This document shows, piece after piece, positions 7,651-62,366 of a stretch of 64,000 nt of DNA; the first letter of the stretch is position 1; the number at the start of each line of letters is the position of its first letter. A program made the position numbers and the translations under genes. The stretch is from Verrucomicrobiia bacterium (GTDB lineage: Bacteria; Verrucomicrobiota; Verrucomicrobiia; Limisphaerales; DASXHY01): positions 1 to 64,000 of the forward strand of contig DASPIL010000096.1 in NCBI GenBank assembly GCA_035629175.1, given 5' to 3'. Under the pieces are notes generated by a model. It saw only the letters and a program-made list of their open reading frames with translations. It searched no databases and was not told where the DNA came from.

Positions 7651-8271
7651 ATGAATTGCATCGAAACGAAGACCCGAATCCTGGATGTCGCCGAGGAATT
7701 GTTCGCCGACAACGGTTTCGAGCGTGTGTCGATCCGGGACATCACCGAAAAGGCGAAGGTGAACCTCGCTGCGGTTAACTATCATTTTGGCACCAAGGAC
7801 GAGCTGATTGCCGCCGTGTTCGAGCGGCGTATCGGCCCGGTGAACCATGCACGATTGGAAGCGCTGAGTGCGCTGGAGAAGTCGACTGGCGGCAGGCGTG
7901 TGAAGGTGGAGGAGATCCTCGAGGCGGTGATTCGTCCGACGTTGACAGGCTGCGCGAAGGAGGGGAGGCATCTCACGACGTTTACGCGATTGATGGGACG
8001 CTGCCTCGTGGAGACCACGCATGGGCTTGAAGAGCTCTTGAAGAGGCAGTTCGACCCCTTGATTCGGCGCATGGATGCCCTGCTGCTCAAGGCGCTTCCT
8101 CACCTTTCGCGTGCCGAGATTTTCTGGCGCCGGAAATTTACATTCGGTGTTCTTCATCATTGGTTGCTGACGCGAGATCGCTTTGTTCCTGCCGATGCGG
8201 GCAAGGTCGATACCGAGACGCAGATCCAAATGCTGATCGCTTTTGTCACCGCCGGTTTTCGGACCGCCTGA
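7651..8271 (+). CDS. TetR-family repressor of the adjacent efflux operon
   Basis: A 206-residue repressor. The N-terminal helix-turn-helix (residues about 8-55) contains VAEELFADNGFERVSIRDI and the recognition helix VNLAAVNYHFGTKDEL. The C-terminal ligand-binding part resembles the branch that includes CecR/YbiH, whose members often control efflux pumps. The ATG at 7651 is chosen because a longer frame start (7591) would place the promoter and operator inside the gene. Three genes for a complete RND pump follow on the same strand, beginning 20 bases after the stop, so it very likely controls them. Confidence 0.9.
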   Translation: MNCIETKTRILDVAEELFADNGFERVSIRDITEKAKVNLAAVNYHFGTKDELIAAVFERRIGPVNHARLEALSALEKSTGGRRVKVEEILEAVIRPTLTGCAKEGRHLTTFTRLMGRCLVETTHGLEELLKRQFDPLIRRMDALLLKALPHLSRAEIFWRRKFTFGVLHHWLLTRDRFVPADAGKVDTETQIQMLIAFVTAGFRTA

Positions 8272-8291
8272 TTTCCTTTTTTTACTCTGTT

Positions 8292-9485
8292 ATGAAACTG
8301 ATTGTTCGTGCGCTGGGTATTTTTGTTCCATCGATCGCATTGGCGTTCCTGCTGCCGGGTTGCGGCAGGAAGTCAGCAGCTCCTGCTGAAAGGCCGCCCG
8401 CCGCGGTGTCCGTGCTGACGGTTGAAACCGAGCCCGTGAAGCTCACCACGGAATTGCCCGGCCGGATCAACCCTGTTCGCGAAGCGCAGGTCCGCGCCCG
8501 CGCCACGGGCATCCTGCTCAAGCGCCTGTTTGAGGAAGGCGCCAACGTGAAGGAAGGCGACGTCCTGTTTGAAATCGATCCTGAACCGTTGCAGGCGGAA
8601 CTCAACAGCGCCCGCGCAGCCCATGCCCGCGCTGAGGCCGCGTTGAAGGAATCGGCCGCCACCGTCGAACGCTACCGCGACCTCGTGCAGATCAATGCCA
8701 TCAGCAGGCAGACGTTTGACGAGGCGCAGGCGACTCTGGGACAGGATGAAGCCGAATTGCTGGCGGCGAAGGCCGGGGTTCGAACGGCTGAACTCAATCT
8801 TTCCTATGCGAAAGTCACGGCGCCAATTTCCGGGCGCATTGGGAGAGCGATGGTCACCGAAGGCGCGCTGGTCAGCGCCGTTGAAGCCACGCAACTCGCG
8901 GTGATCCGGCAGCTGGATCCGGTTTATTTCGACTTCACGCAGTCCAGCACTGACCTGCTGCGGCTGCGGCGTTCATTGGAAGCGGGTTCAAGCTCCTCCC
9001 GTCCGGCGCAAGCCGATGTGACGCTCATTCTCGACGACGGTTCGACCTATGACCAAACCGGGCGCGTGCTGTTCTCTGATGTGTCCGTCGATCCCACCAC
9101 AGGAATGGTGACTCTCCGCGCGCTCGTTCCAAACCCGGGCTATTTCCTGCTGACGGGAATGTTCGTGCGCGGACAGATCGTGCAGCGCGTGATTTCGGAT
9201 GCAATCACTGTTCCGCAACGGACTGTCACGTATGGAGCCGGCGGCGGCGCGACTGTTTTGGTGGTGACAGACGAAAACAAGGTGGAGTTGCGGCGGATCG
9301 ATGTCGATCGGCTGGTTGGCAACAAGGTCCTCGTCGCGCGCGGCCTGAAAGCGGGCGAGAAGATCATCGTTGAAGGTTCGCAGAAAGCGCCTCCCGGATC
9401 GGTGGTCGCGCCCGTGCCATTCAATTCCAACGGTCCCACCCCGGTTGCGGAAATCCCGGCCCGCGCGGCTGTAGCTGCGCATTAA
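8292..9485 (+). CDS. RND efflux periplasmic adaptor, lipoprotein
   Basis: A 397-residue AcrA-type membrane fusion protein. The signal ends with the lipobox LLPGC (Cys24), so it is probably a lipoprotein. The order is beta-barrel, lipoyl (VREAQVRARATGILLKRLFEEGANVKEGD), coiled hairpin (about residues 100-165), second lipoyl half (APISGRIGRAMVTEGALV), then the beta-barrel and membrane-proximal parts. It joins the inner-membrane pump to the outer-membrane channel encoded downstream. The ATG at 8292 is used; the longer frame overlaps tetR. Confidence 0.93.
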   Translation: MKLIVRALGIFVPSIALAFLLPGCGRKSAAPAERPPAAVSVLTVETEPVKLTTELPGRINPVREAQVRARATGILLKRLFEEGANVKEGDVLFEIDPEPLQAELNSARAAHARAEAALKESAATVERYRDLVQINAISRQTFDEAQATLGQDEAELLAAKAGVRTAELNLSYAKVTAPISGRIGRAMVTEGALVSAVEATQLAVIRQLDPVYFDFTQSSTDLLRLRRSLEAGSSSSRPAQADVTLILDDGSTYDQTGRVLFSDVSVDPTTGMVTLRALVPNPGYFLLTGMFVRGQIVQRVISDAITVPQRTVTYGAGGGATVLVVTDENKVELRRIDVDRLVGNKVLVARGLKAGEKIIVEGSQKAPPGSVVAPVPFNSNGPTPVAEIPARAAVAAH

Positions 9486-9495
9486 AGGATCTGTC

Positions 9496-12400
9496 ATGGC
9501 GCATTTCTTCATCCATCGCCCGGTCTTTGCCTGGGTCGTTTCGATTCTCATCATGGTGCTGGGCGGACTCGCGATCACGCGGCTGCCCATCGCGCAGTAT
9601 CCCCGCGTGGCGCCGCCGTCGATCTCCGTCAGCGCCAACTACGCAGGCGCATCCGCAGAAACACTGCAGGACACCGTCACTTCCGTCATCGAGCAGCAGC
9701 TCAACGGCATCGATAACCTCCTTTACATGTCTTCGAGCAGCGACGCGTCGGGCCAGGCGACGATCACGCTGTTCTTCACGCCGAGCACCGACCCTGACAC
9801 GGCACAGGTGCAGGTGCAGAACAAGGTGCAGCTCGCGACGCCGAGCCTGCCGCAAACCGTGCAGCAACAGGGGATTGTGATCGCGAAGGCGACGCGCAAT
9901 TTCATGATGTTCTTCACGCTGTCGACCGAGGATGACAGCCTCGATTCATACGCGCTCGGAAACTACATCGCCGCGAATGTCCTGGATCCCATCCGGCGCA
10001 TTAGTGGCGTGGGTGAGGCGATGATGTTCGGGTCGCAGTATGCCATGCGGATCTGGCTCGATCCCGACAAGATGAACAGTTTCGGGCTGGCGGCGAGCGA
10101 TGTTACGACAGCGATCCAGCAACAGAACACGCAGGTCCCTGTCGGACAATTGGGCGCGAACCCGTCAGTGGAAGGGCAGCAGCTCAACATCATCATGCAG
10201 GGACGCACAACGCTCACGACAGTTCCGGAATTCGAGCAGATCGTCCTGCGGATGAATCCCGACGGCTCGCGTGTTTTGCTCAAGGACGTTGGCCGTGTTG
10301 CGCTGGGGGCGGAGAATTACGGCACATCTGCCCGTGTAAACGGCCATCCGTCTGCAGCGGTCGCCATCCGCATGGCGCCTTCGGCGAACGCGCTCACAAC
10401 AGCAACCGCCGTCGAGGAAAAGGTCAAGGAGCTCGCCAAATTCTTTCCGCCCGGGGTGCGCGTGGACTATCCGCTGAACACGTCGACCTTCGTCCGCATC
10501 TCGATCATTGAAGTCTTGAAGACACTCGCCGAGGCGATTCTTCTCGTGTTCCTCGTCATGTATCTCTTCCTGCAGAATCTCCGCGCCACGCTGATCCCCA
10601 CGATTGTCGTTCCTGTGGCCTTGCTGGGAACGTTCGGCATGATGCTGGCCTTTGGTTTTTCCATCAATGTGCTGACGATGTTCGGGATGGTGCTGGCCAT
10701 TGGGATCCTGGTCGATGACGCGATTGTTGTGGTGGAAAACGTGGAACGCATCATGGCGGAGGAGGGCCTGTCGCCGTTGGACGCCACGATCAAGGCCATG
10801 AGCCAGATCACGGGCGCGTTAATCGGCATTTCGCTGGTGCTCACGGCAGTGTTTATTCCAATGGCGTTCTTCTCGGGATCGGTTGGAAACATCTATCGCC
10901 AGTTCTCGATGTCGCTTGTCGCATCGATGTTGTTCTCGGTATTTCTCGCGTTGTCGCTTACGCCTGCGCTTTGCGCCACGTTGTTGAAGCCGGTGGACAA
11001 GGGCCACAAGCACGGGAAAACGGGATTTTTCGGATGGTTTAATCGTGGTTTTGCCCGCGCGACCAAGCGTTACGAGGGCTGGGTTGCAAAGATTTTGCGC
11101 AAGTCAGTGGTGGCGATGATTGCATTCGCAGTCATCCTTGGCGCGGTTGCGCTGTTGTATGCCCGGCTTCCCTCAGCCTTCCTCCCTGCTGAAGACCAGG
11201 GTTATTTCATCACCAACATCCAGCTGCCGGTTGGCGCGACTCAGGAGCGGACCGATGCGGTGTTGCGGCAGGTGGAGGAGTACTATTCCAGGCAGCCCGA
11301 GATCGCGAGCTTCATCACCGTCGCGGGATTCAGCTTCAACGGCCGCGGCCAGAATTCCGCGTTGTCGTTCGCGCGGTTGAAACCGTGGGATGAACGGAAA
11401 GGCGCCGAGCATCGCGTGGACGGCGTGATTGCGCGCGCGTCGGCTCACTTCGCCTCCATCAAGGACGCGGTTATTTTCCCGGTGAATCCGCCGCCGATAC
11501 CGGAACTGGGCAATTCGGCTGGCTTTGATTTCCAGCTGCAGGACCTTGGCGGGCTGGGCCACGAGAAGCTGATGGAAGCGCGCAACCAATTGCTGGGCAT
11601 GGCAGCGGAAGACCCGCGCGTGGCGGGCGTCCGGCCGCAGGGCCTTGAGGACGCCGCGCAGCTGAAGATCGAAATCGACCAGGACAAGGCGACTGCGCTC
11701 GGCGTGTCGCTTGGTGAAATCAATTCGACGCTGCAGACGTATTTCGGGTCGGCTTACGTCAACAACTTCGTGAACGGCAACCGCGTCCAGCGCGTGATGG
11801 TGCAGCTCGATGCTCCGTATCGCATGACACCCGACGACGTGAGCAATGTGTTCGTTCGCAATCGTGCAGGATCCATGGTGCCGCTGTCGGCGTTCACGTC
11901 GATTCGCTGGACCTACGGTGCGCCCCAGCTGCAGAAGTACAATGGCTTTCCATCAGTGCAGATTGTCGGGACAGCGGCGCCGGGTCGAAGCACGGGCGAA
12001 GCCATGAATGCGATGGAAGAGATGGCGGCAAAGCTGCCGGCCGGCATCAGCTACGAATGGACGGGACAATCGTTTGAGGAGCGGCTCGCGGGCGCGCAGG
12101 CACCCATGTTGTATCTGCTATCGCTGCTCGTTGTGTTTCTCTGCCTTGCGGCCCTTTACGAAAGCTGGAGCATTCCGCTCTCTGTGGTTCTCATCGTGCC
12201 CTTGGGAATCCTGGGCGCACTTCTCGCGGCGACATTCCGCGGGTTGCCAAATGATGTTTACTTCAAGGTCGGTTTGCTGACGACAGTCGGGCTTGCGACC
12301 AAGAATGCGATCCTGATCATTGAATATGCGAAGGATCTTCAGGCCGCTGGACGCGATCTGGTTGAAGCCACTCTGGAAGCGGTTCATCTGCGGCTGCGTC

Positions 12401-22775: not shown

Positions 22776-22831
22776 GTCCATTACACAGCGCGGGCTTCAG
22801 CTTGCTTTGAAGAGCACCCTCTCCCCAACCG

Positions 22832-22863
22832 CTCTCCCGCGCCTGCGTCGCAGGCGAGAGGAG
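22832..22863. repeat. Palindromic intergenic repeat
   Basis: Hairpin with perfect core GCCTGCG-T-CGCAGGC flanked by CTCTCCC and GAGAGGAG. It belongs to the CTCTCC/GAGAGG palindrome type also seen at 7305-7335 and 44489-44524, and fills much of the gap before the beta-propeller gene. Confidence 0.6.
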
Positions 22864-22974
22864 AAAACCAAGACCAGTGGCATGGAGCCGCCGCAGCGCC
22901 GCGTGCCGGGAAATTCTCCCTCGCGAAATGAATTGTCATGTTTTACGGTGGGCGCAATCAGCCCGGTCAAAGCC

Positions 22975-24681
22975 ATGAAGTTGCACGTAATGTTTCGCTT
23001 AATCTTCTCTCTCGTCATTCTTTCAATCCCATCCGCGATTCCGAGTCGTTCCAATGCGCAGGACTGCGCCTACCTTCCGCCCGGCGGACCGCTTGCATTT
23101 GGATTGCTCGAGGTTTCCCGCATGCAGGTCGATTCGCAAGTTGCCGATTCTCCGATCTGGCTCGATGACGGGCGCATTGCTGTTGGAGCGGCGTTGAGCA
23201 GCCAGGACGGATATCGTCGAGGCGCCATTTGGATCATGAAACCCTACGCGTCCAGCCTCCACGACATTCAGTCGTTCATCCTGCCGCCGCTTCCCGCGAT
23301 CAAGCTTGGCACTGGCGGATTCGGACGCGTGCTTGCCTCGAGCGGATCGTGGCTCGCGGCGACGGCCCGTCTTACAAACGATTCCTTCACGGTGTGCCTC
23401 TTGCAGGCAACCAACGCCACCGAATGGGCGTTCCGCACGAATCTACTGGGCGATCCGAACGCCTCCGGCGATGCCTTCGGAAGCCAGCAGGATTCGATCG
23501 CGATGGACGGGCCCTGGCTCGCCGTGATTCGCTACGAATCATCGGGGCGCGTGCACTTGTATCGCGTCAATGACGAAGGACTTTGGGAGGAGCGCCAGCA
23601 GCTTGTGATTCCCGGATTTCAAACGGCAGCAATCAACAGCAGCACCATCGTGAAGATGCATGATCGAACGCTGGCTGTCGGGGTGCCGCAGAATGGAAAC
23701 AGCAGTTATACGGGAGCAGCGCACCTGTGGCGTCGGGACGTCGCGGGCGTGTGGAATTATGAAACAAACCTTGCGCCTGCTGATCTCGCAGCTGCGGATC
23801 GTTTCGGCACGAGCCTCGCCCTGGGACCGGACAAGGTGTTTGTTGGGGCGACGCAGTCGGATATCGTCACCACCAATGCGGGTGCTGCGTTTGTGTTTCA
23901 TTATACGAACGGTGCATGGGCGGAGGTGACACGGATCGCGCCCACGAATGCCACCACCACGCGTTTCTTCGGCGCGAACCTCGCGTATTCAGATCTCAAG
24001 GGTGAATGGCTCGTGGATGCATCGCAGAGCCGGATCAGCATGTTTCAGCCCTCGGGGCAGGGCCATGAATGGCGCATGGTGGCGCAGGGGCGCCCTGGCC
24101 GGATATTTGAGAATTGGGAATCACCCGCTGGCGTGGTCAACGATTACAGTTACGACTCCGGCAGCGCGAGCGCCAATTATGTATCAGTTCGGGCCCATCA
24201 GGTTCTGTTGGGCTTTTCGTCCATCAGCACGATCATGGAGTTCGGCTGGCACTCCATCATCACGATCCATGTCTCGTCCGATCCGCCGTGTTCGACGCGC
24301 CCCATCGGTTACGTACCCATTGGAGCTGTGCGCGACGACGGACACGAGCGTGCCGCCGACGTTGACGGGGACGGCATCAGCGACATCGCGGAAATTTATT
24401 TCGGGACCTACGGGCTGACGAACACCGTGTCTGCGGGATTGTCTGCGACAGTGTCGGACAACGTAAGGAAGATTCGATGGCCGCGTGCGGCGGACACGAA
24501 CCTGTTGATTTCTGCAACGCCGCAATGGAGTTCCAATTTTTTGCAATGGACGCAGGAGGGCATCACGCCCATCAAGGTCGGAACCGAGCCTGAAACCGGG
24601 CGGGATGTGATGGAAGTGACGCTGCCTGACTCCAGTTCCGCCTATTTTCGACTGCTGCTCAGTTTGCCGCCTCCCCAGTAG
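22975..24681 (+). CDS. Secreted beta-propeller-like (FG-GAP-type) protein
   Basis: A 568-residue exported protein. Signal peptide MKLHVMFRLIFSLVILSIPSAIPSRSNA (start MKLHVMFRLIFSLVI). The body has repeated units of the form DRTLAVGVPQNG, DKVFVGATQSD and WLAVIRYESSG, as in FG-GAP-like integrin-type propellers. Near residue 460 lies AADVDGDGISDIAEIYF, a calcium-loop motif typical of such proteins, followed by a C-terminal module ending YFRLLLSLP. The start at 22975 is chosen for the signal peptide; the longer frame from 22807 is not supported. The role is unknown, probably surface or extracellular. Confidence 0.78.
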   Translation: MKLHVMFRLIFSLVILSIPSAIPSRSNAQDCAYLPPGGPLAFGLLEVSRMQVDSQVADSPIWLDDGRIAVGAALSSQDGYRRGAIWIMKPYASSLHDIQSFILPPLPAIKLGTGGFGRVLASSGSWLAATARLTNDSFTVCLLQATNATEWAFRTNLLGDPNASGDAFGSQQDSIAMDGPWLAVIRYESSGRVHLYRVNDEGLWEERQQLVIPGFQTAAINSSTIVKMHDRTLAVGVPQNGNSSYTGAAHLWRRDVAGVWNYETNLAPADLAAADRFGTSLALGPDKVFVGATQSDIVTTNAGAAFVFHYTNGAWAEVTRIAPTNATTTRFFGANLAYSDLKGEWLVDASQSRISMFQPSGQGHEWRMVAQGRPGRIFENWESPAGVVNDYSYDSGSASANYVSVRAHQVLLGFSSISTIMEFGWHSIITIHVSSDPPCSTRPIGYVPIGAVRDDGHERAADVDGDGISDIAEIYFGTYGLTNTVSAGLSATVSDNVRKIRWPRAADTNLLISATPQWSSNFLQWTQEGITPIKVGTEPETGRDVMEVTLPDSSSAYFRLLLSLPPPQ

Positions 24682-24794: not shown

Positions 24795-26255
24795 TTGTTC
24801 TGGAAAATCATTAGTCTCCATTCCGTGCGCTTCGGTGATCAGGCTTCCAGACTTCCATCGTGCGGCTTCACGTTGCTGTTGTTGGCAATGCTCGCCGTCG
24901 CGTTTCCCGCCGTCGGCGCCGTCCTGTGGAGCCATCCCGAAACTGTGCTCGTCTGCGACAACGGCAAGGGCGAGGACATCCTGCACGGCGCCGTCAAGCC
25001 GCGCGATCGCAACTCGGCGGGCACGCTTTATTTCCGCATCAAGGTCACGCCGATCTCCGACACGGCCGCGAAAATGATCAAGCCCTTTGAAGCCGGCTTC
25101 ATGCTGGTGGAGAACGGGGTGGAACATCTCGGCATCGGCAATACGGACGGGGCGATGGCTTTTTCCGCGCTCAACGTTCCCACTGCGCCACGGAAATTCC
25201 AGGACTTCAATTCAAGCGTTCCGGATGCTCCGTTTTCCTACGAGTACATGCGGGCCGGCGTTCCGCGCTACATCGTATGGCGGGTGGAATATGTGCCCGG
25301 CCAGGACGCCAAAGTTACTGCCTGGCTCAATCCCGATCTTTCCCACGGCATGACTGAGTTCAACCAGCCAACCAACATCGTGGTTCATTTTCAGGCGGAC
25401 GCGACCTTCGATGAATTTAGGCTGATCCACCGAGGCTATGGCGGTGGATGGAAGTTCAGCCAGATGATGGTGGCAACCTCCTTCGAGGATTTATTGATGC
25501 CGCATTTCTGGCAGCGCGGGTGGTTCGTCGGCCTGATGATGGGTGGGCTGCTCTCAGGCGTGGCGGTCGTCGCACGGCTGGGCGAACGGCGCCGGGCACA
25601 ACGGCAAATCCGGCGGCTCGAACAGGAAAGTGCTGTCGCTGCAGAGCGCGCCCGCATCGCACGCGATATCCATGACGAAGTTGGCGCCAGCCTGACGAAG
25701 ATTGGCAAGCTGACAGAATTGATGGACTGGAAAAACAAGGGGGAAGCCGACCAGGCGGCATTCACCCGCAGCATTGCCGACACCGCGCGCGAAACGATTC
25801 GTGCGATGGACGAAATCGTTTGGGCGATCAATCCAAAGAACGACACCTTGAAGGAGATGGCCGATTATTTCGTTTACTACGCCCAGGAATTTCTTCGTCC
25901 GACTGGCATCTCCTGCGAACTGGATGTGCCTCTCGAAGTTCCTGTCATTCCGCTGACAGCCGAGGTGCGCCATCATTTGTTCATGGTAGTGAAGGAGGCG
26001 TTGCACAATGCGGTGAAGCATGCTGCACCGCGCCGCATCAAGCTTGCGCTCGAATTTCCCGCAAGGAATCGTTTGTCGATCGTTGTGAGCGACGATGGGT
26101 GCGGGTTCCGTCCAGACCAGGCTGCCGCAGTCGGAAATGGACTGGAGAATATGGACCGCAGAATGCGCGACCTCGGCGGGGGCTTGCAGGTGTGCAGCCA
26201 GTTGAATCAAGGCACCACCGTAACGCTGCAGCTGTCACTGGCGTCAGCCCCTTAA
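24795..26255 (+). CDS. Sensor histidine kinase with extracellular lectin-like domain
   Basis: A 486-residue kinase of the NarX/DesK (HisKA_3) type. The N-terminus is a signal or anchor segment (GFTLLLLAMLAVAFPAV). Residues about 60-225 form an exported domain that contains VWRVEYVPGQDAKV, AWLNPDLSH and DATFDEFRLIHRGYGG. A membrane span follows near 238-258, then the dimer helix with His near residue 290 (ARIARDIHDEVGASL) and HATPase motifs (DDGCGFRPD, GLENMDRRM). The start is TTG at 24795; a GTG at 24825 is possible. The sensor domain resembles the repeats of the secreted protein downstream. The regulator starts 5 bases after the stop. Confidence 0.85.
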   Translation: MFWKIISLHSVRFGDQASRLPSCGFTLLLLAMLAVAFPAVGAVLWSHPETVLVCDNGKGEDILHGAVKPRDRNSAGTLYFRIKVTPISDTAAKMIKPFEAGFMLVENGVEHLGIGNTDGAMAFSALNVPTAPRKFQDFNSSVPDAPFSYEYMRAGVPRYIVWRVEYVPGQDAKVTAWLNPDLSHGMTEFNQPTNIVVHFQADATFDEFRLIHRGYGGGWKFSQMMVATSFEDLLMPHFWQRGWFVGLMMGGLLSGVAVVARLGERRRAQRQIRRLEQESAVAAERARIARDIHDEVGASLTKIGKLTELMDWKNKGEADQAAFTRSIADTARETIRAMDEIVWAINPKNDTLKEMADYFVYYAQEFLRPTGISCELDVPLEVPVIPLTAEVRHHLFMVVKEALHNAVKHAAPRRIKLALEFPARNRLSIVVSDDGCGFRPDQAAAVGNGLENMDRRMRDLGGGLQVCSQLNQGTTVTLQLSLASAP

Positions 26256-26260
26256 TCACC

Positions 26261-26953
26261 ATGAATCGAAACGACAATCGTCAGCAACCCGCGCTCGTTG
26301 GCGTGGTGATCATCGAGGATGGCGCGTGGATGCGGGAGAACCTCGAGCTCGAAATCAATCGCAGCGAAGGGTTGCGTTGCCTCAAGTCGTATCGAACCGC
26401 GGAACAGGCGCTGCGCGGAATTGTCGACGACCAGCCTGACGTGGTGATCGTTGATATCAATCTGCCGGGCATGGACGGGGTGGAGTGTGTGCGGCATTTG
26501 AAGAGCATCGTTCCCAAGGCTCAGTGCCTGATGCTCACCGTTTATGAAGAGAGCGAAAAGATTTTCAATTCGCTGCTCGCGGGCGCCAGCGGTTACCTGC
26601 TCAAGCGCAGCACGACCCAGGAACTCGTTGAAGCCATTCGCCAGGTTCGGGAGGGCGGCTCTCCGATGTCGAGCAGCATTGCGCGAAAAATCGTCGCTCA
26701 CTTTCACCAGGCTGGAGAAAACAGATCGGACGTCGGCGAGCTTTCGCCACGGGAGCAGCAGGTTTTGGATCTCATGGCGAAGGGGGCATCGTCCAAGGAA
26801 ATTGCGAGCTTGCTGTCTTTGAGCATTGAAACGATCCGGATGAACGTGAAGCACATTTATGCGAAGCTGCATGTTCATTCGCGCGGCGAGGCGACCGCCA
26901 AATACCTTGGACAATTCCCGCTCGGATTTTCGAAGGCGGCAAAACCAAAGTAG
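26261..26953 (+). CDS. NarL-type response regulator
   Basis: A 230-residue regulator. The receiver has the acidic pair in VVIIEDGAWM, the phosphoacceptor Asp in VVIVDINLPGMDG and the Lys in GYLLKRSTT; the LuxR-type helix-turn-helix is LSPREQQVLDLMAKGASSKEIA with a recognition helix near residue 200. The ATG at 26261 fixes it 5 bases after the kinase stop, so the pair is an operon and surely cognate. A strong hairpin follows at 27004. The likely target is the large secreted-protein gene directly downstream, but that is inference. Confidence 0.9.
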   Translation: MNRNDNRQQPALVGVVIIEDGAWMRENLELEINRSEGLRCLKSYRTAEQALRGIVDDQPDVVIVDINLPGMDGVECVRHLKSIVPKAQCLMLTVYEESEKIFNSLLAGASGYLLKRSTTQELVEAIRQVREGGSPMSSSIARKIVAHFHQAGENRSDVGELSPREQQVLDLMAKGASSKEIASLLSLSIETIRMNVKHIYAKLHVHSRGEATAKYLGQFPLGFSKAAKPK

Positions 26954-27003
26954 ATCGCTTTCGAAACGGGGTTCCGCTGCGTGCGCGGGGGAGGCCAATG
27001 GCT

Positions 27004-27044
27004 AAGTCGGCGCTCGTGCCTGATTTGGAGCGCCGACTTTCAGT
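27004..27044 (+). terminator. Terminator hairpin and REP-like word
   Basis: Perfect 12-bp stem AAGTCGGCGCTC/GAGCGCCGACTT with a 12-base loop, ending in TTT. It lies 50 bases after the regulator stop. Its 3-prime arm and the bases beyond, GGAGCGCCGACTTTCAGT at 27027-27044, are found again on the other strand at 42135-42152, so the terminator overlaps a dispersed element. Confidence 0.7.
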
Positions 27045-27161
27045 TGGCTTACGGCTTCAACGGGACCTTCGGAAGATTTCGATCCCTCGCTCAAAACGGT
27101 TTGTTCCGCGCTGATGCGCGGTGACGACGCAGCCCGCCATCCCTCCCGGCGGATCAACCTG

Positions 27162-27183
27162 AATACCCCTGATTGCGGGTATT
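27162..27183. promoter_or_regulatory. Inverted repeat upstream of the large secreted protein
   Basis: Perfect half-sites AATACCC (27162-27168) and GGGTATT (27177-27183) separated by 8 bases, about 90 bases before the start of the 1161-residue gene. The position fits a regulator operator, possibly for the NarL-type protein encoded just upstream. The rest of the 320-base gap from 26954 holds the terminator and no gene. Confidence 0.4.
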
Positions 27184-27273
27184 GTTGAAACGCGCGCGGT
27201 AATTACTCTCCTTCGCTGTAGTCACGCTTGCACGCGGCGGCACACAACAACAACACCCAGCTACATCAGTCTT

Positions 27274-30200
27274 ATGAAAAACCGCTTACACCAAATGAAC
27301 TCACCTGGTTTGTGGGGAAAGATTCTGAGCCCGGTCCTGCGGGTGTGCGCGCTCCTCGTGCTGGTGGCGCAACCCAGCTCCGGCCAGACAACCAACGCCT
27401 TTGATGCCGCAAACGATCCCGCGTACGTTGGGTCCTTCGAAACCGGTCTGAATGGCGGGTTTGGATTCGGCCCCTGGACAGTTTCTGTTTCCGGCAATGG
27501 CGGCGCGTTCATCCAGAACAACGGCCCCAGCGGCAGTTCCTTCGATTTGTGGAACGAGTCGATCAACAGCCGAACCGTGGCAGTGAGGCCGTTCACTTCG
27601 CCGATGACGGCAGGGCAGGCGTTTTCGTTCCAGCGGCGATTGAATGGACTTGCGGGGTCGCCAAACACGAACGCAGTGATCCTGCAGGATGCGAGTGGCA
27701 ACACGATTTTTAGTTTCTGGCATGTCGGGGGTGACAACGACAACGGCCATTTCACGGATGCGGGAACAACCGACGGAGTGGCAACCGGCTTTGGATACAA
27801 TTTCCAGCAGTTCAACAGCTATTCATTCAAGCTGACGTCGCCGACAACGTATCTCTTCCGCAATCTGACGACGGGCGCATCGTTCACGGGGACCGTTTCC
27901 GGATCTATTGCACGGGTCGCCTTCTACCGCGGCAACGGGACGACGACGTCGGGAGGCGGCCAGGATTTTCAATTCGACATGCTCCAGCTGGTCTCCGATC
28001 CCGTGACTTTCGCCGGACATTCCCCAGCCGACCGCTCCTTCAGCGGCGTTCGCACCAATATCACTGTTCAGGCGGTGGATGGCGCTGTTGCAGTTAATAC
28101 CAACAGCATTGCGATGACAGTCGACGGCGCGAGCGTTACACCAGTGATCAAGCAGACAACAGGGATTACCACGATCAGTTACACGCCCGCTTCGCCCCTC
28201 AGCGCCGGAACACTGCATACCGCGAGGGTGGTCGTGGCGGACAACAACGGCACTCTTTTCACGAATGCCTGGAGCTTCACCACGGGCTTTGCTTCGCTGC
28301 CAGCGGTACTCGCTGGTCCAGTCGCTACCAGCAACGGGGTGGATGTAGTGATCTTCAATGCGGCGGGCAACCCTTGGATCGGAACGAATTACGATTCCAC
28401 CTCCAGCCGGACGCTCTTTTCGCGGATCAGCATGGTTTTCCACAACACGGCCGACGAGCCGGGCAACGGCGGGGGAGGATGCTATGGCGGGCTTCACTTT
28501 TTCAACGGCAACACCGAGCGATTGCTGACTGGCGAAACCTGGATTCGGACGACGTGGAGCGTCGATACCAAGAACGGCGGCGGCATCTCAGGTGAACCGG
28601 AATTGATTCCCAGCACCACTGTCATCGCGGGTGAATGGCACACGCTGGTGACGCGCGTCGATTACACGCCGGGTGGTAATGCGACCGCCAAAATCTGGCT
28701 CGACCCTGATTTCACCCAGACAGAAGCCGATCAGCCCAACCCGCCCCTCATCGTTTCCATCAACAACACGTTCGACAACATTCGGTTCCGATGTGGAAAC
28801 GCTCCATCCAGCGCTGAAGCCACGAACATCATCATCGCGACGCTGGGAACGGATGTTGGCTTTGCTGTTCCCGCCAACGTGACGTTCCAGGGGATTATTC
28901 CTGTGAACGGATCGGCAAGTATTCCAGCAACAACCCCGATTGGGGCACAGGTTGTAATGGGTGGTGCGCCGATCACGGGTATCACGCTGAAAGTAAATGG
29001 CGTCACGGTTTCCCCGGCCTTGAGCACGAATTCCGGCATCATCACGGTAAGCTATCAGCCGGGTGCGCCTCTGGCCGCGGGCACACTGCAGATGGTAGAA
29101 CTCGTGGTAACCGACAACAATGGAGGGGTGTTCACGAATCCGTGGAGCTTCACCACCGGTTATCCTTCCTTGCCGGTAACTGTTGCGGGACCCATCACCA
29201 CGGGTGGAGGCAATGATTACACGCTCTTCTCCGCAGCTGGCGATGCCTGGGTGGGTTCCAATTACAACACAAATTCCGGTTCGATCCTTTACACGCGTTA
29301 CAGCATGGTCTTCAACGACCTGAACAACGAAGGCGGCAGCGGCGGAGGATATGGCGGTTTGCATTTCATGCAGGACAACGACCAGAGGCTCATTGCCGGC
29401 AACGCCTGGGTCTCGCTTAATTGGAGTCTCGATGCAGCTGCAGCCCAGCAGGACCTTTTCCCGCTCACCTTTGTGAATCTCGGCGAATGGCACACCATTG
29501 TTGTGCGCACGGAATACCTGCCGGGGACGAACGACGTTGTGAAAGTCTGGCTCGATCCGGACTTCACGCATACTGAAGCCAACCAGCCAAACCCGCCTGT
29601 CGTGCTCGAAATCAATAACAGCTTCAACAATATCCGGCTTCGCTGCGGCGACGGAACGGCCAGCGCCACCTGGAGCAATATCATCATGGCTGCGACAGCA
29701 ACTGGCGTGGGCTTTCCGCCTTGGGTCGATGTGGTGTTCGATAACCAGTTCCCTGCGGATGCCGCAACTGCGGCTGCGGTCGGAACTTCAATCAGCGTGC
29801 GCGCGATTCCCGGCAGTTCCGGAATCAAAACGAGCACCATAAGCATGACCATCGATGGCAATCCCGTGACGCCGAGTTTCAGCGTCAACACGAACGGGAA
29901 TGTCATCATCAACTACCAGCCGGCCGCCGCATTCGAGGCAAATTCGAGCCATTTCGTGACTGTCAGCCTGACGGACTCAAATGACGCGCCCTATTCCGCC
30001 AGTTGGTCCTTCACGGTGGATGCGTTTCCAGCATTGCCCGTCACTCTTGAAGGGCAACTGGATGTTTTCGGCGGCGGCGGCGGCATCATCATCTACAGCA
30101 ATCTGAACGGCTGGATCGATGGCAATTACCAGAATACATCGACAAAAACGCTCTACGCTCGTTTCAGAATGACGTTCCTGGACCTGAATAATGAAACAGG

Positions 30201-30759
30201 CAACGGTGGGGGATTTGGAGGACTTCAGTTCTTCGAAGGGAATGCCGAACGGCTGATCATTGGCAACGCGTGGGCATCGGTCAATTGGAGTCTCGACGCC
30301 TCGGGCAACCAGGTGGATCTCGTTCCTCAACTTGCGGTTGCGCTGGGGGAATGGCATACGCTGGTCGTGCGAATCGACTTCAAGGCTGGCTCGAACGACG
30401 AGATCAAAGTCTGGCTCGATCCGGACTTCAACCGCAGCGAAGGCGCCCAGCTTCAGCCTGCGACGTCTCTCACGGCCAACAGCACCTTTGACAACATCCG
30501 TCTTCGTTGCGGCAATGGCAGCGCCTACGCGCAGTTCGACAGCATCATGTTCGCTGCAACGGCAGCAGGGATCGGATTCGCGGCTCCCGGTGTGCAGGCT
30601 GCCCTGACCATTCAGAACAACCAGTTGTCCTGGACGGGCACGGGTATCCTGGAGCAGGCACCAGCGCTGACCGGGCCCTGGACGGACGCCTCGACGCAAA
30701 CCAATCCGCAGGTTTTCAACGCAACGAATACAGCGACGTTTTATCGGTTGCGGCAATAG
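27274..30759 (+). CDS. Large secreted protein with three Ig plus lectin-like repeats
   Basis: A 1161-residue exported protein with a signal peptide ([17 protein letters not shown]). After a unique N-terminal beta domain (about 40-240) come three long repeats of about 280 residues, starting near 243, 535 and 818. Each has an Ig-like part, with a strand such as [12 protein letters not shown] and the closing SFTTG, then a concanavalin-like part with [15 protein letters not shown] and VWLDPDF. The last 65 residues ([13 protein letters not shown] to FYRLRQ) are a C-terminal module shared with other secreted proteins here. Probable role is binding a glycan or surface polymer. Function is unproven; the neighbouring kinase and pseudopilin suggest a system. 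Confidence 0.8.
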
Positions 30760-30856: not shown

Positions 30857-31792
30857 ATGAATCCAATCTCGAAAGATAAATGTGACTTTTTCTCTGGGCG
30901 CCGCAACTGTTCGGTACGTTGGATACACCGCAGCGGTTTCACTCTGATTGAACTGCTCGTGGTCATTGCAATCATTGCAATCCTGGCGGCAATGCTTCTT
31001 CCCGCGTTGAGCAAGGCAAAGAGAAAAACGCAGCAAGCCAATTGCCTCAGCAACCAAAAGCAACTTTCCCTGGCGTGGGTCATGTATGCGTCCGACAATT
31101 CCGACCGTGTGGTGGGATTCAGCACCGATCCGGGTGCCGCCACGCCGAATTGGCGCGTCCAAGCCGACAGGGTGCCTGACCCCGCGCCGGCGGACGTGAC
31201 GGGCAACGCGCTCGTTGTCTGGAAAGTTGAGCGCGGTTATCGAAACGGTCCCCTTTACCCCTATGCGCCGAATCCCGGCATCATGCATTGCCCGGGTGAC
31301 ATCCGCGCCACGATTCCGAATCACTTTGCATGGACGAGTTATTCCGGAGTCAACGGTTTCGCGAATGGCGACACGGCCTACGAGAACCTTCCCGGATTCA
31401 TCATGAAACAGTCGCAGGTGTTGCATCCAAGTGACCGGTTTCTCTGGGTGGAGGAATCCGATTCACAACAGATCACGGTTGGCGGCCAGCTATGCGGAGA
31501 AAACGTCCGCACGTGGGACATGACGGTGGGAAATCCGGCAATCAATTTCGTCAACGCCCGATGGGGAGATTCCCCCGCGGCGTTTCATGGGCGAAGCAGC
31601 ACGTTTAGTTTCGCCGACGGCCACACCGAGGCGCATAAGTGGGTGAGTGATGCGGTGATCAGGTTCGCCAACAGCATGAACCCCCGCAAATTCACGATCA
31701 CCGGTGGCGCTGAAGGATCCGCAGCCCAGGCCAATGCGAAGGAGGATCTATACTACGTGGCCAGTCATAACCCGACGGTCCTCAATCCGTAG
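30857..31792 (+). CDS. PulG-type pseudopilin with H-X9-DG ending
   Basis: A 311-residue pseudopilin. The leader is [19 protein letters not shown], quoted by its core FTLIELLVV, then the stalk [28 protein letters not shown]. The C-terminal part has MHCPGD, a [11 protein letters not shown] stretch and [13 protein letters not shown], the H-X9-DG motif. I take the ATG at 30857 ([12 protein letters not shown]); earlier in-frame starts lie in the gap. It begins 97 bases after the large secreted protein and repeats the arrangement seen at 19646-21174. Probable partner or minor pseudopilin for secretion of the upstream protein. Confidence 0.85.
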
Positions 31793-54702: not shown

Positions 54703-54715
54703 GTTGACGGTCAAC
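54703..54715. promoter_or_regulatory. Small palindrome between two phage genes
   Basis: GTTGAC-G-GTCAAC, between the giant protein's stop and the next start. In RNA it would form a 6-bp hairpin at the intergenic junction. Role unknown. Confidence 0.35.
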
Positions 54716-57700
54716 TACTCTTCCAAGGACATGGTTGACACCGGCACGCCCTTGGCGCGCGACCGGATGTCGAGGTTTGCGGGCGTCGTGCCACGCTTCC
54801 GAATCGGAAGTTCTTCGGCTGCCGCCTTCCTAGACGGCATCCACTGCTCCAACACCTCAGCAGAGCGGAGCCGGTCCAAAATTGGCATAACCGTCTGTAG
54901 CGGCTGGGCGGTGACCTCGCCGCGGGAATTTCGGATGCGTGATTCACCGCTCAGCTCACTGACGTTTTTGAACTTTTTCAGGAAGCCAATCGGACGACCC
55001 GCGACCTGGAACGGATAGCTGAAGTGGAAATCCGTTTTTTGTGGCCTCTGAGCGACCGGGATTTCCAGGAGCGCAACGACAGTGCCGAAGTCGACGTCCA
55101 CGAGCTCGGGGTCCGCGATGTCTGCGGCGACCTGGTCAGGGGCGATCCCGATTTCTTTCGCTTCGTTGGCGTGTATCGGCAGCTCCTTCTGCACCGCACG
55201 CTTCAGGTAGGTCGCGGCCAACCCAAAGTCGATTGCGCCTTCGTCAATTGCGCGTTTGAAGTCCGCCAGGGACTTTATGTTGCGGGCGATTACTTTCTTT
55301 TCCTTTGGCACGGTATCGGACGCTTTGACGCGGTTGAAAATCTCGCGGATTTGGCGATCAGCCAACTTCTGTGAGACTGCACCGGCTTCGACTGCGGCCT
55401 GCAGCGCGTCGTGATAGGCCAGTTGGCCGTAACGCGACTTGAGGTGGTTCAACGGACTCAGCACCGAGACAGCCACCAGGGCAGAATCGTTGTCACCCGC
55501 GACATCTTTTACGCGACTCAAAAAACGGCTTGCCGATTGTTGATCTGAAAAAGCCCAACCGCCGTCTGCTGCAATGTAAGAGAACCCACGACCACCTTGC
55601 GCGTCAACCGAGACGGGCTTTTTAGCACCGGTCGGCCCGACTTCCTTGACGCCGACGCCGAGACGGTCTGCAGTGAGCACCATGACAGGTCGGTCGACAT
55701 AATCGCGCAGGTCCACCTTGTTGACCGGCAAGAACGCCGGGAGAACGTCTTCAGAAAGCGTGACGCTCTCCGCGTTCGCGCGCACCTTCACGTTGCCCTT
55801 GGTGGGCATGAACATCGGCTGGCCCTCAAGCACGCTGTTGCGCATCGCTTCGGTAATAGGCAGCGAATGGACGGGGTATAGGTCGGCCTCTTTCCATGCG
55901 TGGGCTTCGTCTTCACTCCGGAACTCCGGCCCGACCGCCTCCTCATCGTCGTTGAACCATTGCCAGCGATCCTCTTCAACCTCGCGCAATGAATAGGCCA
56001 TTTCTTGCCCTTCGTGAATAGAGGCTGCAGGCACGTCCCGCATCTCGACCTTCGCGCCGAACTTCTTGCCGAACTTATTGGCGAAATCGACGAGCATCTT
56101 GTCGTAGAAGCCCTTCATGCCTTCGCCGCCGACTTTGAGGTCGAGTCCGGACAAATGAACGCCGTCGTTCGCGACTTGCGGGTCGCTGACAATTTTGTCC
56201 GCAAGCTCTTTTCCGATTAGGTCTGGCAGGCGCGATGCGGGTTGATCGTCGAACTGCTGAAAAGTCCCATCCTTCAGCTCAATGTGCATTGAGTAGAGGT
56301 CGCGCTGGTCGTCCATTCGCCAAGCCGATACTTTTTCAACCTGCTTGCTCAGGTCGTAGCGCTCGGCCTGCATTTCTCCGGTCGTCCAGCCGATCCACTC
56401 CTTGCCCTCTTCGGCAGCCTGGCGGACGAGACGGCGGAAAACGAACTCGTGCCAGGTGTTCTTGAAAGGTGCGTCTGGGACGCCCGCTGTCGTCATGTTG
56501 TCCGCCGCCCACTCTCTCTGAGCTTGGAGGGCTTCTTCCTTGGTCTTGAAAAACAGGTAATCCCCCACTTTAAGATCGAGAAACTTAAAACGATGTCCGT
56601 CCGCATACCCCACTTCACCCACTCTGACTTCTTCGAGGGGGGTGACTTCCTTCCGCTGACGGTAGCCTTCTTTTCGCCCCTTTTGGTGCCAGTCGCTCTG
56701 AATCTCTTCGACGAAAAGCCCGGGCCTGCTGTCAGCGTCCACGCGGTCGTTGACGCGGGTATGCGCGAGCACGTTGGGCTCGTCCCAGTGGCTGGAGCGG
56801 AACACCTTGTCCGCGTGCTGCTGATTTGGTCGACCCCCGCCGTGGAGCCGGTCGGCCGCAAACCGCTGTGCTTCCGCAAGAGACCTCGCTCCGAACTCAG
56901 GCCCAACACGCTTGCCGTCCGCATCGACATGCTCCCACGCATAGGGCCGCGAGGGGTCCGTTTTTCGGACAACGTGACCTTCAGGCAAAGTGAAATTGCC
57001 CTGCAGTTCCTTTGCGGGCGGCATCGTGAACAACATCTCGCGGTAGTTTTCGCCGCCAGGCAGTTGATATCGCGAGAACTTCGTCGGAGCACCGTCGTTG
57101 TCGAACTCACTCCGGCGCGTCGCTTCTTCGGCCATCTCAAAACGCCTTTGCGCCTGCCAGTCATCACCGTTTTCCTGCCAGCGTTGGGCTTCGCGCTCTA
57201 AACGGGCAGCTACGTCAACCCACGCTTCAGACGAGTTTGGTCGGTCCACTGAATTGCGTTCGAGCCAACCCTGTAAAGCCGGAGAAAGTTCCTGCGCACC
57301 GCCTTTAACCACCTCTTTGACTTCGAGCCGATTCTGCTCCAAAAAGTCGAGCACCTCTTGCTTGGTGACCTTCGTTTTCCCACTCAGGAAATCGTCGAGC
57401 CCGCTCCACTTCAGCTCTTCGCCTTTGACCCCGTTCTGCGGGTTCTTGAGCATTGCCTGGAGCTGTTCGGGCGTCGTCGAGTTTGCCATTTTCGAGCCGA
57501 CGACGCGTTCGAGCTGAGAGAACCAGACAGGGCCTTTCTCCTTGTTGCTCGAAGGCATGAAGTCGGCCTGGTCCAGCGCACCGGGTGCCGGAGCGTCCGG
57601 CGCGTCCGGAAGAGCCCGAGCGCGTTGGATGAGCGTCGGCCCGCGGCCTGCGGGAACATCTGCATCCATTGAAGGCAACTCGATCTCGTTGAAGAAATCA

Positions 57701-60700
57701 CGGATTGCTTGCTCCTTGTCCTTCGATGCAAAAATCGAGGTTGAGTCAGAGACAATCTCGCGCCCGCTTTCATCGAGCACGTTGACCGTCAGTCTGTCGA
57801 TTTTGCTTTGGTGAGCGAGCGCGTGTTCGAGCAATTTCTTGCCCTGCGTGCGCCAATATTTTGACCCGAGCTCAGCGCGGAAATTCCCGTCGTTGGGCGT
57901 GTAACGGATGCGGACGAATCCTGCTTTGATTGCGTCGAGACGTGCTGCCTGGTCCGGCGTGGCTTCAAAAGCTGTCCCAAACTTCGAGTTGAAAGCGTCG
58001 GCGTTTTTCGCCAGCGCGTTCTCGTGATACGCGTCCGCCAACGGCTGCGTTTCACCGTCCGGCAAAATCCATGCGGTTGGGTTCCCCTTGGCTTCAGACT
58101 TTGCTTTGGGAGCCTTGGGAGTGGTGTCGATCTGCGGCACGTATGCGTCGCGTGCTGCCTGCTCTTCGGCCGCCCAGCGCTCGTAATCGATTAGGCCGTT
58201 GGCCTTGAGCGGACGACCTTCGGCATCGCGCGCCGGTTCGGTGCCGGTCTTCGGAGCCTTCGGACCACGCTTGCCCGCCATGAACTGCGCGACGGGCTCT
58301 TCGTCAGTCCACTGCACCTTTTTCTCGAAGTCGAGACCGAGCGTGAACGCAGGACCGTTATCGACCTGGGAGTAGAAATCCTGGGTCTTCGCGACGTCGC
58401 CGACGATTGTGCCGCTGTGATCGACCGGATTGAGCGTGCTGTCTTGGTAGAGCAGCCCTTCGGGCACGAGCACGGATTCCTGCTTGAAGTGCTTGGAGAT
58501 TTCGAGCGCGGTTTTAGGCGAGATATTCGTAACCAAAAAGTTCTTGCCCTGGTCGACCCCCTTGTAAAATCCCTTGACCTCGACGAAGTCAAAACCCTGC
58601 TGCTTGAGCATGGCTGCAAGCTGCGCGTTGGCTTCGACGTTCGGCTTTGCGGTTGCGTCCCCGAGCGCTTCCTGCGTCGCCGTGAGGACAGACCAGCCCT
58701 TTTTCTTGAGTGCGCGCTCGATCTGCTTTGCGTTCTGAAACTCCGACGCTTTCGGAGCGCCGCGGACTTCGCTCGGCATGAAGCCAGCGTTCACCAAGTC
58801 GTCAGCAGGGAGCGCGAGGCGGTTTTGCTGCATCGGCTCTGCTTTGAGAATGTCGCGGACGTTGATCCACTCCGTCGTCTCCGTGAGTTCGCGAGTGTTG
58901 ACTCCTTCGTTGTCCAATTTCTTGCGCAGCGGATTCATTTCGACGATTGGGCGGTCGTCAAAGCTCTTGTAACGCTGAATCGGAAACTCGCCTTTTTTGT
59001 TCGGGAAAAGTTTGGGCTCCGTGATTTCGTTCGGATGCGTTTGCGCCTTGTTCAGGTCCTGGGCGCGAAGGTTTGTTGGATACTTCGTCACGCCTGCAAC
59101 CGTCATCTCACGCGCCGATTTCGGCGGGGCGATGCCTTGAACCAAGTTCAAGAATTGCATGCGTTCCTTGGAAATCTTCACAGGCGTGTAGTCGGGATTC
59201 TCTGCCGGGATGAAGCCCGAATAATTCTCCGGACGAACGACCTTCTCGCCGTTGCCCAGGTAGCCGTTGTCCTGGTTGGCGAGGTAGTCCTCAATGTCAC
59301 GGTTGAATTCAGCCTCCCCTTTGGCGGTGAGGCTGCCTTCTGCGTTCTCGTAGGGTAGTAAATCTCCCTTGCCTTTTTTGCCCGCTCGGGCGACAACTTC
59401 CTTGGCGTTGGCAAGCAGCTTGTCTGGACTAAAAACATTAACCTGCTGAACGCCCTCCTTTGTTACGCGAAAAGCGAAAGGAATGGCGGTCTTGCCAACG
59501 CCCTCTTCAATCCTCGGTCCTCCGTCACGTCCTTCCTCGATTTGTTCGCGCCGCGCCGTGCGGTTCATGTTTCCGTCCGTCTCCGCAGAGCGATACAGCA
59601 ATTGGACTGGGCGGCGGGTGTTCTCTGATAGCGTCGCGAATGCCTGCTTTTGCTCGGGCGTGAGTGCGGCGTCGGCTTCTACCGCTGACGCGGTCTCCGT
59701 CAAACCGATTTCATCGCGCGACCGCCGCGGGCCTTCGAATGGCTTGTAATCTTGCCGCGCGACCCCGCGCAGGTTCGGTGCTTCAGCGGCTGGAGCAGCT
59801 TCAGGCGAGGGGGCTGGGACAGCAGGTGCTTCGGCAGGCTTCACCGCTTCTTCAGGCAACGGGAAAAGTTCGACAATGCCCGACTCTTCGCGCGCTTTGC
59901 GCACCTGGGCCGTGGCTTCCGGTGTCGCGTCGAAATCATCCGTCAGCGTTTCAATGATGCGGGGAGGCTCCTGCGCTTTCTGCACAGGAACCTCGATAGG
60001 CTGCTTCGGTGCTGCGGGTTGAACCGGAATCTGGTTGACGGCTTCCTGCGGAATGGGTGGGGGAGTAGCGGCCTGCTTCGCCACCGGCGTCGGCGTTGCC
60101 TTCGGCTGGCCCGCCACAGGCGGCTTGGCGATCTCATTCATCGCGGCGGAGACTTCAGGGTCCGCAAGCCAGCCCTGCACGACGTCGTCAATGATGTTCG
60201 AGACACGTGGGGACGATTTAACCCCCATCACGGTTGACACCGGCTGTCCAGCCTCCGCAGTAGGAGAAAACTCGGTGCGGAAAAAGCCGAGTCGGTCGAG
60301 CGCGCCTGCGATAGAGCGCACGATTTTATCGCGTCCGGAAAGCGAGAGTCCGTCCAGGCGAGTCCCTTCAAGGTGCGCAGAAACCAGTTCCGTCACCAGT
60401 TCCATGTTGGGGTCCGCTGCGGCTCGTTGTTGATCGGTGAGCCCCTCGCGGCCGAGGTAAGCGTCTGCGAACTCTTTCTGGAAGTCCTTTCCGACCGCGT
60501 TCAGAATTTGGTTCCGGTCGGCTTCTGACATCACATATTTCGTGATGAAATGGGAGCCCTCGTGAGTTACCGCTGGGTCGGCGACCCACAGCAGAACTTT
60601 TTTCGCCGCACCATTGGCATCAGCCACTGTAACTTCGAAAGCACCGTCCTTATTGGCCATTCCCGGATTCGCTTTTTCTGCGAACTCTGGGGAAACCAAG

Positions 60701-62277: not shown

Positions 62278-62366
62278 AAGTCTAAAAGTGATATGTGAAG
62301 TGGGAGGCCCTCGCGTCAACCGGACCTTGACCGGAACGCAAAATAGTTGCTACCCTGGATCGTTTT

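Follow-up and report, generated by a model that had tools for sequence, protein, structure and literature searches.

Verrucomicrobia are known degraders of complex polysaccharides; to our knowledge, little has been learnt of how they sense their substrates. The subject of this analysis is a cluster of genes in a 64,000-nucleotide stretch of DNA, here called the window, from a Verrucomicrobiia bacterium (Limisphaerales; DASXHY01; assembly GCA_035629175.1, contig DASPIL010000096.1, positions 1 to 64,000 of the forward strand). The cluster encodes, in order, a sensor histidine kinase, a NarL/LuxR-type response regulator, a secreted multidomain protein that is a putative glycan binder and an X9-DG pseudopilin (Table 1). 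An earlier note on this DNA had proposed that the exported part of the kinase resembles the repeats of the secreted protein, so that sensor and binder share a fold and a ligand within a self-contained capture circuit. Judged by sequence comparison, the kinase ectodomain and the three repeats are homologous across most of the domain, at a level far above chance, and the locus is probably a dedicated glycan-capture circuit in which a sensor and a regulator are followed by a secreted binder and a pseudopilin.

The kinase ectodomain and the secreted repeats

The kinase has the make-up of a NarL-type two-component sensor, with HisKA_3 and HATPase_c domains in which the catalytic motifs are intact (HDEVGA, containing the phospho-accepting H293, NAVKH, DDGCGF and GNGLENM), and a regulator with a receiver and a LuxR/GerE domain is encoded beside it. 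The signal peptide and transmembrane segment of the kinase were assigned by eye from the sequence. Pfam finds neither a Reg_prop propeller nor a Y_Y_Y domain in the window kinase, the sole exported part of which is a concanavalin A (ConA)-like domain. Searching this ectodomain against Pfam and NCBIfam gave no match.

Pairwise BLASTP aligns kinase residues 147–210 with the second repeat (39% identity over 64 amino acids, E = 1e-8) and the kinase with repeats 1 and 3 (E = 4e-6 and 1e-4, respectively), the E-values of all kinase–repeat alignments being those of single comparisons. The strings quoted in the earlier note are present and both genes lie where it had placed them. Profile–profile alignment, the check that the note had proposed, was carried out with hhalign: three sequences against three give a probability of 98.7 (E = 1.8e-16, 142 columns), whilst deep profiles of 49 kinase domains and 18 repeats give a probability of 99.4 (E = 1.3e-21) and a score of 137. 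In control comparisons the score falls to 16 with the profile reversed and, over 100 column-shuffled profiles, averages 15 and reaches 24 at most. The alignment covers ~150 of 190 columns and includes 42 columns with an identical majority residue in both families, amongst them TLY, a GN pair, WLxPD, E..Q and an F..IRLR strand. Set against these controls, the profile scores indicate that the resemblance is far from accidental and is not confined to the strands that were first quoted.

An AlphaFold2 (AF2) model of the ectodomain built from nine sequences is an all-beta jelly roll, with a predicted local distance difference test (pLDDT) score of 72.7 and a predicted template modelling (pTM) score of 0.77. 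The top VIA-align match of this model is the glucuronan lyase 2zzj (Z 13.4, root mean square deviation 2.9 over 164 residues), followed at Z 11–12 by many ConA-like carbohydrate-binding or carbohydrate-active domains; the top Foldseek matches are polysaccharide lyases, a glycoside hydrolase (GH) family GH131 glucanase, calreticulin and similar proteins. ConA-like jelly rolls are typical of lectins, glucanases and lyases, and the modelled ectodomain has the ConA-like lectin/glucanase fold. No unrelated fold emerged for either domain, nor was a mutual score lacking, and the claim of a shared fold family is supported by sequence, with a ConA-like model for the kinase domain and with homology for the repeats.

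The secreted protein consists of an N-terminal domain followed by three units, each comprising a Big_5 immunoglobulin (Ig)-like domain and a ConA-like repeat. Pfam Polysacc_lyase (PF14099, PL20-like) matches the protein above cut-off (E = 1.9e-10), the best stretch being partial, at positions 111–170 of 210. Searches of PDB sequences with the secreted protein and with the kinase-domain and repeat profiles returned nothing convincing. Within the bacterium's own genome the repeat type is found in this one protein, besides weak matches to kinases and a marginal one on contig C16. The N-terminal domain is also present in three relatives of the protein and occurs twice in a GH31 + GH76 protein. The product of the following gene has the N-terminal methylation motif and H-X9-DG of a pseudopilin.

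Table 1. Features of the locus, in window coordinates (TM, transmembrane; aa, amino acids)
Feature	Position	Strand	Basis and remarks
Sensor histidine kinase	24795..26255	+	486 aa; signal peptide, ConA-like ectodomain, one TM segment, HisKA_3, HATPase_c (Pfam); TTG start uncertain
Kinase ectodomain (residues 42–236), ConA-like, homologous to repeats	24918..25502	+	BLASTP, hhalign, AF2
Probable TM segment of kinase (~residues 242–264), GWFVGLMMGGLLSGVAVVARLGE	25518..25586	+	By eye from sequence
HisKA_3 + HATPase_c transmitter	25644..26240	+	Pfam E 3e-8 and 6.5e-13
NarL/LuxR-type response regulator	26261..26953	+	Response_reg 2.9e-21, GerE 3.4e-15; ATG 5 bases past kinase stop
Putative operator AATACCCCTGATTGCGGGTATTGT	27162..27185	+	Two NarL-like heptamers, 7-4-7 dyad, before repeat gene
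Secreted multidomain protein, putative glycan binder, 1161 aa	27274..30759	+	
N-terminal domain of secreted protein (residues 44–243)	27403..28002	+	No Pfam match
Big_5 Ig-like spacer 1	28000..28293	+	Pfam Big_5 E 1e-6, three stretches
ConA-like repeat D1 (residues 341–535)	28294..28878	+	Homology
Big_5 Ig-like spacers 2 and 3	~28885–29166; ~29737–30030		Pfam Big_5
ConA-like repeat D2 (residues 632–820)	29167..29733	+	Homology
ConA-like repeat D3 (residues 920–1107)	30031..30594	+	Homology
X9-DG pseudopilin	30857..31792	+	N_methyl 4.7e-9; reading frame opens 30767, likely ATG 30857

Two other features of the window may be mentioned. A gene for a secreted FG-GAP protein (22807–24681) lies just upstream of the kinase on the same strand, with no counterpart seen in the corresponding loci of relatives, and an open reading frame (ORF) of 2534 aa (54715–62319, minus strand) has no Pfam match at 1e-5.

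Conservation of the locus and the putative operator

Strong repeat matches (E up to 1e-20) occur in six of the 320 genomes of the order that we surveyed. The loci concerned are those of the window, G158, G051, G183, G271 and G262; a further genome, G369, belongs to another class. Flanking sequence is sufficient to judge the presence of a kinase in the first five (G262 is a 4.5-kb contig on which the repeat gene and pseudopilin are visible), and in all five a family kinase with its regulator lies within ~7 kb of the repeat gene, either in line or divergent. The pseudopilin gene follows the repeat gene in five loci, the G183 contig ending before that point, and in three loci a GH31 protein is encoded after the pseudopilin. 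In two of these three GH31 proteins there is PA14 and also one more ConA-like domain of the family found in kinase and repeats, whilst in the third GH31 is combined with GH76 and the N-terminal domain of the repeat protein is present twice, all within one 1923-aa ORF (L148 7348–13119, G158). In a tree of 53 ectodomains the kinases of these loci (n = 5) form one clade with support of 100/100, none of 500 shuffles being as low, and the stem leading to this clade is long, at 1.08 changes per column. Its correspondence with the repeat protein is perfect, the two co-occurring exclusively. On the evidence of gene content and order, the genes for the kinase, the NarL-type regulator, the repeat protein and the pseudopilin have been conserved together as one locus, referred to here as the module.

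The ConA-like domain family extends beyond the module, to GH31 proteins and other secreted proteins. In G369 (L147), a secreted 1042-aa protein with family domains has as neighbours a kinase, the regulator of that kinase and amylase-like genes; here it is the secreted protein, not the kinase, that contains the domain. Within the bacterium's own genome, two further kinases carry the ectodomain (44–46% identity) and both extend into Reg_prop and Y_Y_Y domains, one being encoded near a GH97 gene and the other near GH99/GH71-like genes. The latter (L023, contig C103, 8088–11829) is split into two overlapping frames (8088–10874 and 10624–11829) by a frameshift or assembly error and has GH99/GH71-like genes on both sides. 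No SusC/SusD pair was seen among the neighbours scanned, although no search aimed at SusC/SusD was made.

The palindrome before the repeat gene is present in five of the six loci, reading AATACCCCTGATTGCGGGTATTGT in the window and TACCCAYGTTYATGGGTATTGT in G051, G183, G262 and G271, with surrounding sequence that differs; G158 lacks it. G051 and G271 each have one extra copy, in G051 before a PEP-CTERM gene and in G271 in the interval that separates the kinase gene from a divergent one. The PEP-CTERM gene (L098 14399–15154, 251 aa) lies between the regulator and the repeat gene, with its own palindrome at 15258. A scan of 634 kb of loci found every strong palindrome site within module loci, whilst in 1.3 of the 5.4 Mb of the bacterium's own genome (24%) the window site is the sole one, with a score of 32.4 and no other position above 14. 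The half-sites, TACCCAT or TACCCCT, fit or nearly fit the NarL consensus TACYYMT (PMC4886647), and the first half-site of the window, TACCCCT, is identical to that of the engineered NarL site TACCCCTAAAGGGGTA (PMC4549865); binding by the module regulator is putative. Scanning for sigma-70-type promoters revealed no excess.

Further clues come from G158. The regulator encoded there falls outside the clade of the other four module regulators (approximately unbiased test, p = 0.013) and has the recognition helix TVRNYIRF, as against T[IV]RMNVKH in the others (SIETIRMNVKHIYAKL in the window; the G183 regulator is cut before the helix). The G158 ectodomain, however, is of the module type and has been kept with the repeat protein although the regulator was replaced. 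That the locus with the replaced regulator is also the one without the palindrome, whilst ectodomain and repeat protein stayed, suggests an association of the palindrome with the regulator and of the ectodomain with the repeat protein, and is the strongest evidence that regulator and palindrome belong together. A TACCAG-CTGGTA dyad seen in G158 was considered as a replacement operator and rejected, such dyads being expected by chance.

Ligand and proposed circuit

What the sensor and binder might recognise can be approached through their neighbours. Kinases of the wider family adjoin CBM20-GH77, GH57/CBM25, GH13, CBM53 and GH31-PA14 genes (CBM, carbohydrate-binding module). Across 37 genomes, GH13 or GH31 lies no more than 12 kb from at least 19 of 54 family kinases (GH13 among the matches listed) against 1.5 expected, a count in which related genomes are not independent. 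This neighbourhood points to alpha-glucan-type substrates for the wider kinase family and makes a shared alpha-glucan-type ligand of sensor and binder likely. Short family kinases at four loci (L104, L105, L106 and L109) have a carbamoyltransferase gene a few kb on, an odd recurrent neighbour for a glycan locus.

We propose that the ConA-like ectodomain would bind an oligo- or polysaccharide, the likeliest being an alpha-glucan or a related glycan with alpha linkages, upon which the kinase would phosphorylate the NarL-type regulator and the regulator would dimerise on the 7-4-7 palindrome. From there it would activate, rather than repress, the genes for the repeat protein and pseudopilin, and in relatives that for the GH31 enzyme also. 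The secreted protein, its ConA-like domains spaced by Ig-like ones, would bind extracellular polymer of the class that the sensor detects, perhaps acting together with a pseudopilin fibre as carrier. Sensor and binder would share a fold because both read the same class of ligand. Put more fully, and more tentatively, Limisphaerales-like Verrucomicrobia may possess a family of operons for polysaccharide capture, the products of which would act as a unit: a sensor kinase with a single ConA-like domain, a NarL-type regulator that has a 7-4-7 operator of its own, a secreted binder made of two to three copies of the domain found in the sensor, and a pseudopilin. The same alpha-linked glycan would then be recognised by sensor and binder alike, and the latter may be held on a pseudopilin fibre. 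As regards the interpretation in the earlier note, the shared fold family is supported and so, beyond what the note had to draw on, is the self-contained circuit, the module being conserved in other genomes and the NarL-type palindrome tracking the module regulator; the shared ligand is plausible from gene neighbourhood.

Several observations weigh against the circuit as proposed. The repeats match other family kinases better (E down to 1.6e-14) than the adjacent one (1.1e-7), and thus neither a specially shared pocket nor a recent duplication of the kinase domain into the neighbouring gene is supported, the latter having been rejected on these scores. The AF2 model of repeat D2, built from three sequences, is of low confidence (pLDDT 47.4), so that the fold of the repeats rests on homology. 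G369 has a repeat protein with no family kinase beside it. No gene after the pseudopilin in the window was recognised as encoding a glycoside hydrolase, and the GH31 genes of G000 sit on other contigs, for which reason the ligand is read from relatives, and the presence of GH76 in G158 makes alpha-mannan possible. The half-sites of the palindrome are separated by 4 bases, not by 2 as in the 7-2-7 NarL sites of E. coli, and the link between regulator and palindrome by co-loss depends on the single replacement in G158.

Some of these points bear on a different explanation, that sensor and repeats belong to one fold family and are co-regulated but have different ligands, the kinase sensing, for example, a small oligosaccharide cue and the repeats binding another polymer or a surface. 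ConA-like domains are common in secreted Verrucomicrobia proteins, the family at issue is itself found in GH31 and other secreted proteins, the repeats show no special closeness to the module kinase and, given the long stem of the module kinases, their pocket may have diverged. The perfect correspondence between kinase clade and repeat protein argues against different ligands, however, as does the retention of both in G158 despite replacement of the regulator, and we regard this explanation as unlikely, though worth keeping in view. Exclusive co-occurrence, together with the position of the palindrome before the repeat gene, would also suit a feedback sensor in which the kinase responds, by domain–domain contact, to the secreted protein and monitors its level, its secretion or how far its binding sites are occupied by ligand. 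Yet other kinases of the family adjoin glycoside hydrolases where there is no repeat protein, which favours glycan sensing as the ancestral role and makes a feedback sensor improbable. More improbable still is a reading in which the repeats act catalytically, as polysaccharide lyases, and a dead lyase serves as the sensor domain of the kinase, in the manner of the GH10 domain of RsgI6: the PF14099 match to the secreted protein and the ranking of 2zzj as best fold match of the ectodomain would fit, but that Pfam match is strongest over a short stretch only, the ectodomain matches 2zzj only weakly in sequence (E = 0.094) and an arrangement in tandem, with Ig-like spacers in between, resembles that of a binder.

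Comparison with known systems

The glycan-capture circuit proposed here has points in common with several known systems. Like NarX–NarL (PMC4549865, PMC4886647), it pairs a HisKA_3 kinase with a LuxR-type regulator and putative palindromic half-sites of the TACYYMT type; the sensor domain is different, however, as is the half-site spacing (4 versus 2), and the proposed targets are secreted glycan-locus genes. The Reg_prop sensors of polysaccharide utilisation loci are also related, in that longer relatives of the window kinase, in the same genome and order, carry the ectodomain ahead of Reg_prop, Y_Y_Y and HisKA_3 and are encoded near GH genes, whereas the window kinase lacks the propeller and Y_Y_Y. 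That pseudopilins are tied to glycan use in Verrucomicrobiota has already been noticed: in Verruconatronum alginivorum, a pseudopilin gene is over-expressed on alginate and there are 67 homologues of a pulG-like pseudopilin (PMC13274419). The loci in that work are for alginate, the term histidine kinase does not appear in the main text and no sensor that shares the domain of a binder is described.

Neither the kinase family nor the module turned up in the open-access literature that we searched, which does not prove that they have never been described. A conserved neighbourhood ties a sensor ectodomain family to a probable target operator and to a secreted binder that belongs to the family as well, which brings ligand, signal and output within reach of experiments on three small purified proteins and a single DNA duplex. 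If the proposed circuit is correct, the abundant X9-DG pseudopilins of the phylum would be linked to a specific glycan circuit.

A close parallel in principle is provided by the RsgI anti-sigma factors of Clostridium thermocellum, the sensor modules of which belong to the same families as the secreted enzymes that they control (PMC4711584). RsgI6 has a GH10 domain with 57% identity to Xyn10D, and CBM3 is found in RsgI1, 2 and 4 (PMC4711584). In both cases an exported sensor domain shares its family with a module of a secreted protein, which in the window it would control, and the circuit as proposed would, like RsgI, sense extracellular polysaccharide. The window kinase has no anti-sigma domain and no SigI factor, carrying a kinase transmitter instead, and its NarL-type regulator, its ConA-like domain of an unassigned family, its phylum and its secretion context all set it apart from RsgI/SigI. 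The principle that a sensor shares the module of the binder is thus the same and the machinery different; if the circuit is borne out, an RsgI-like sharing of modules will have been shown in a two-component system.

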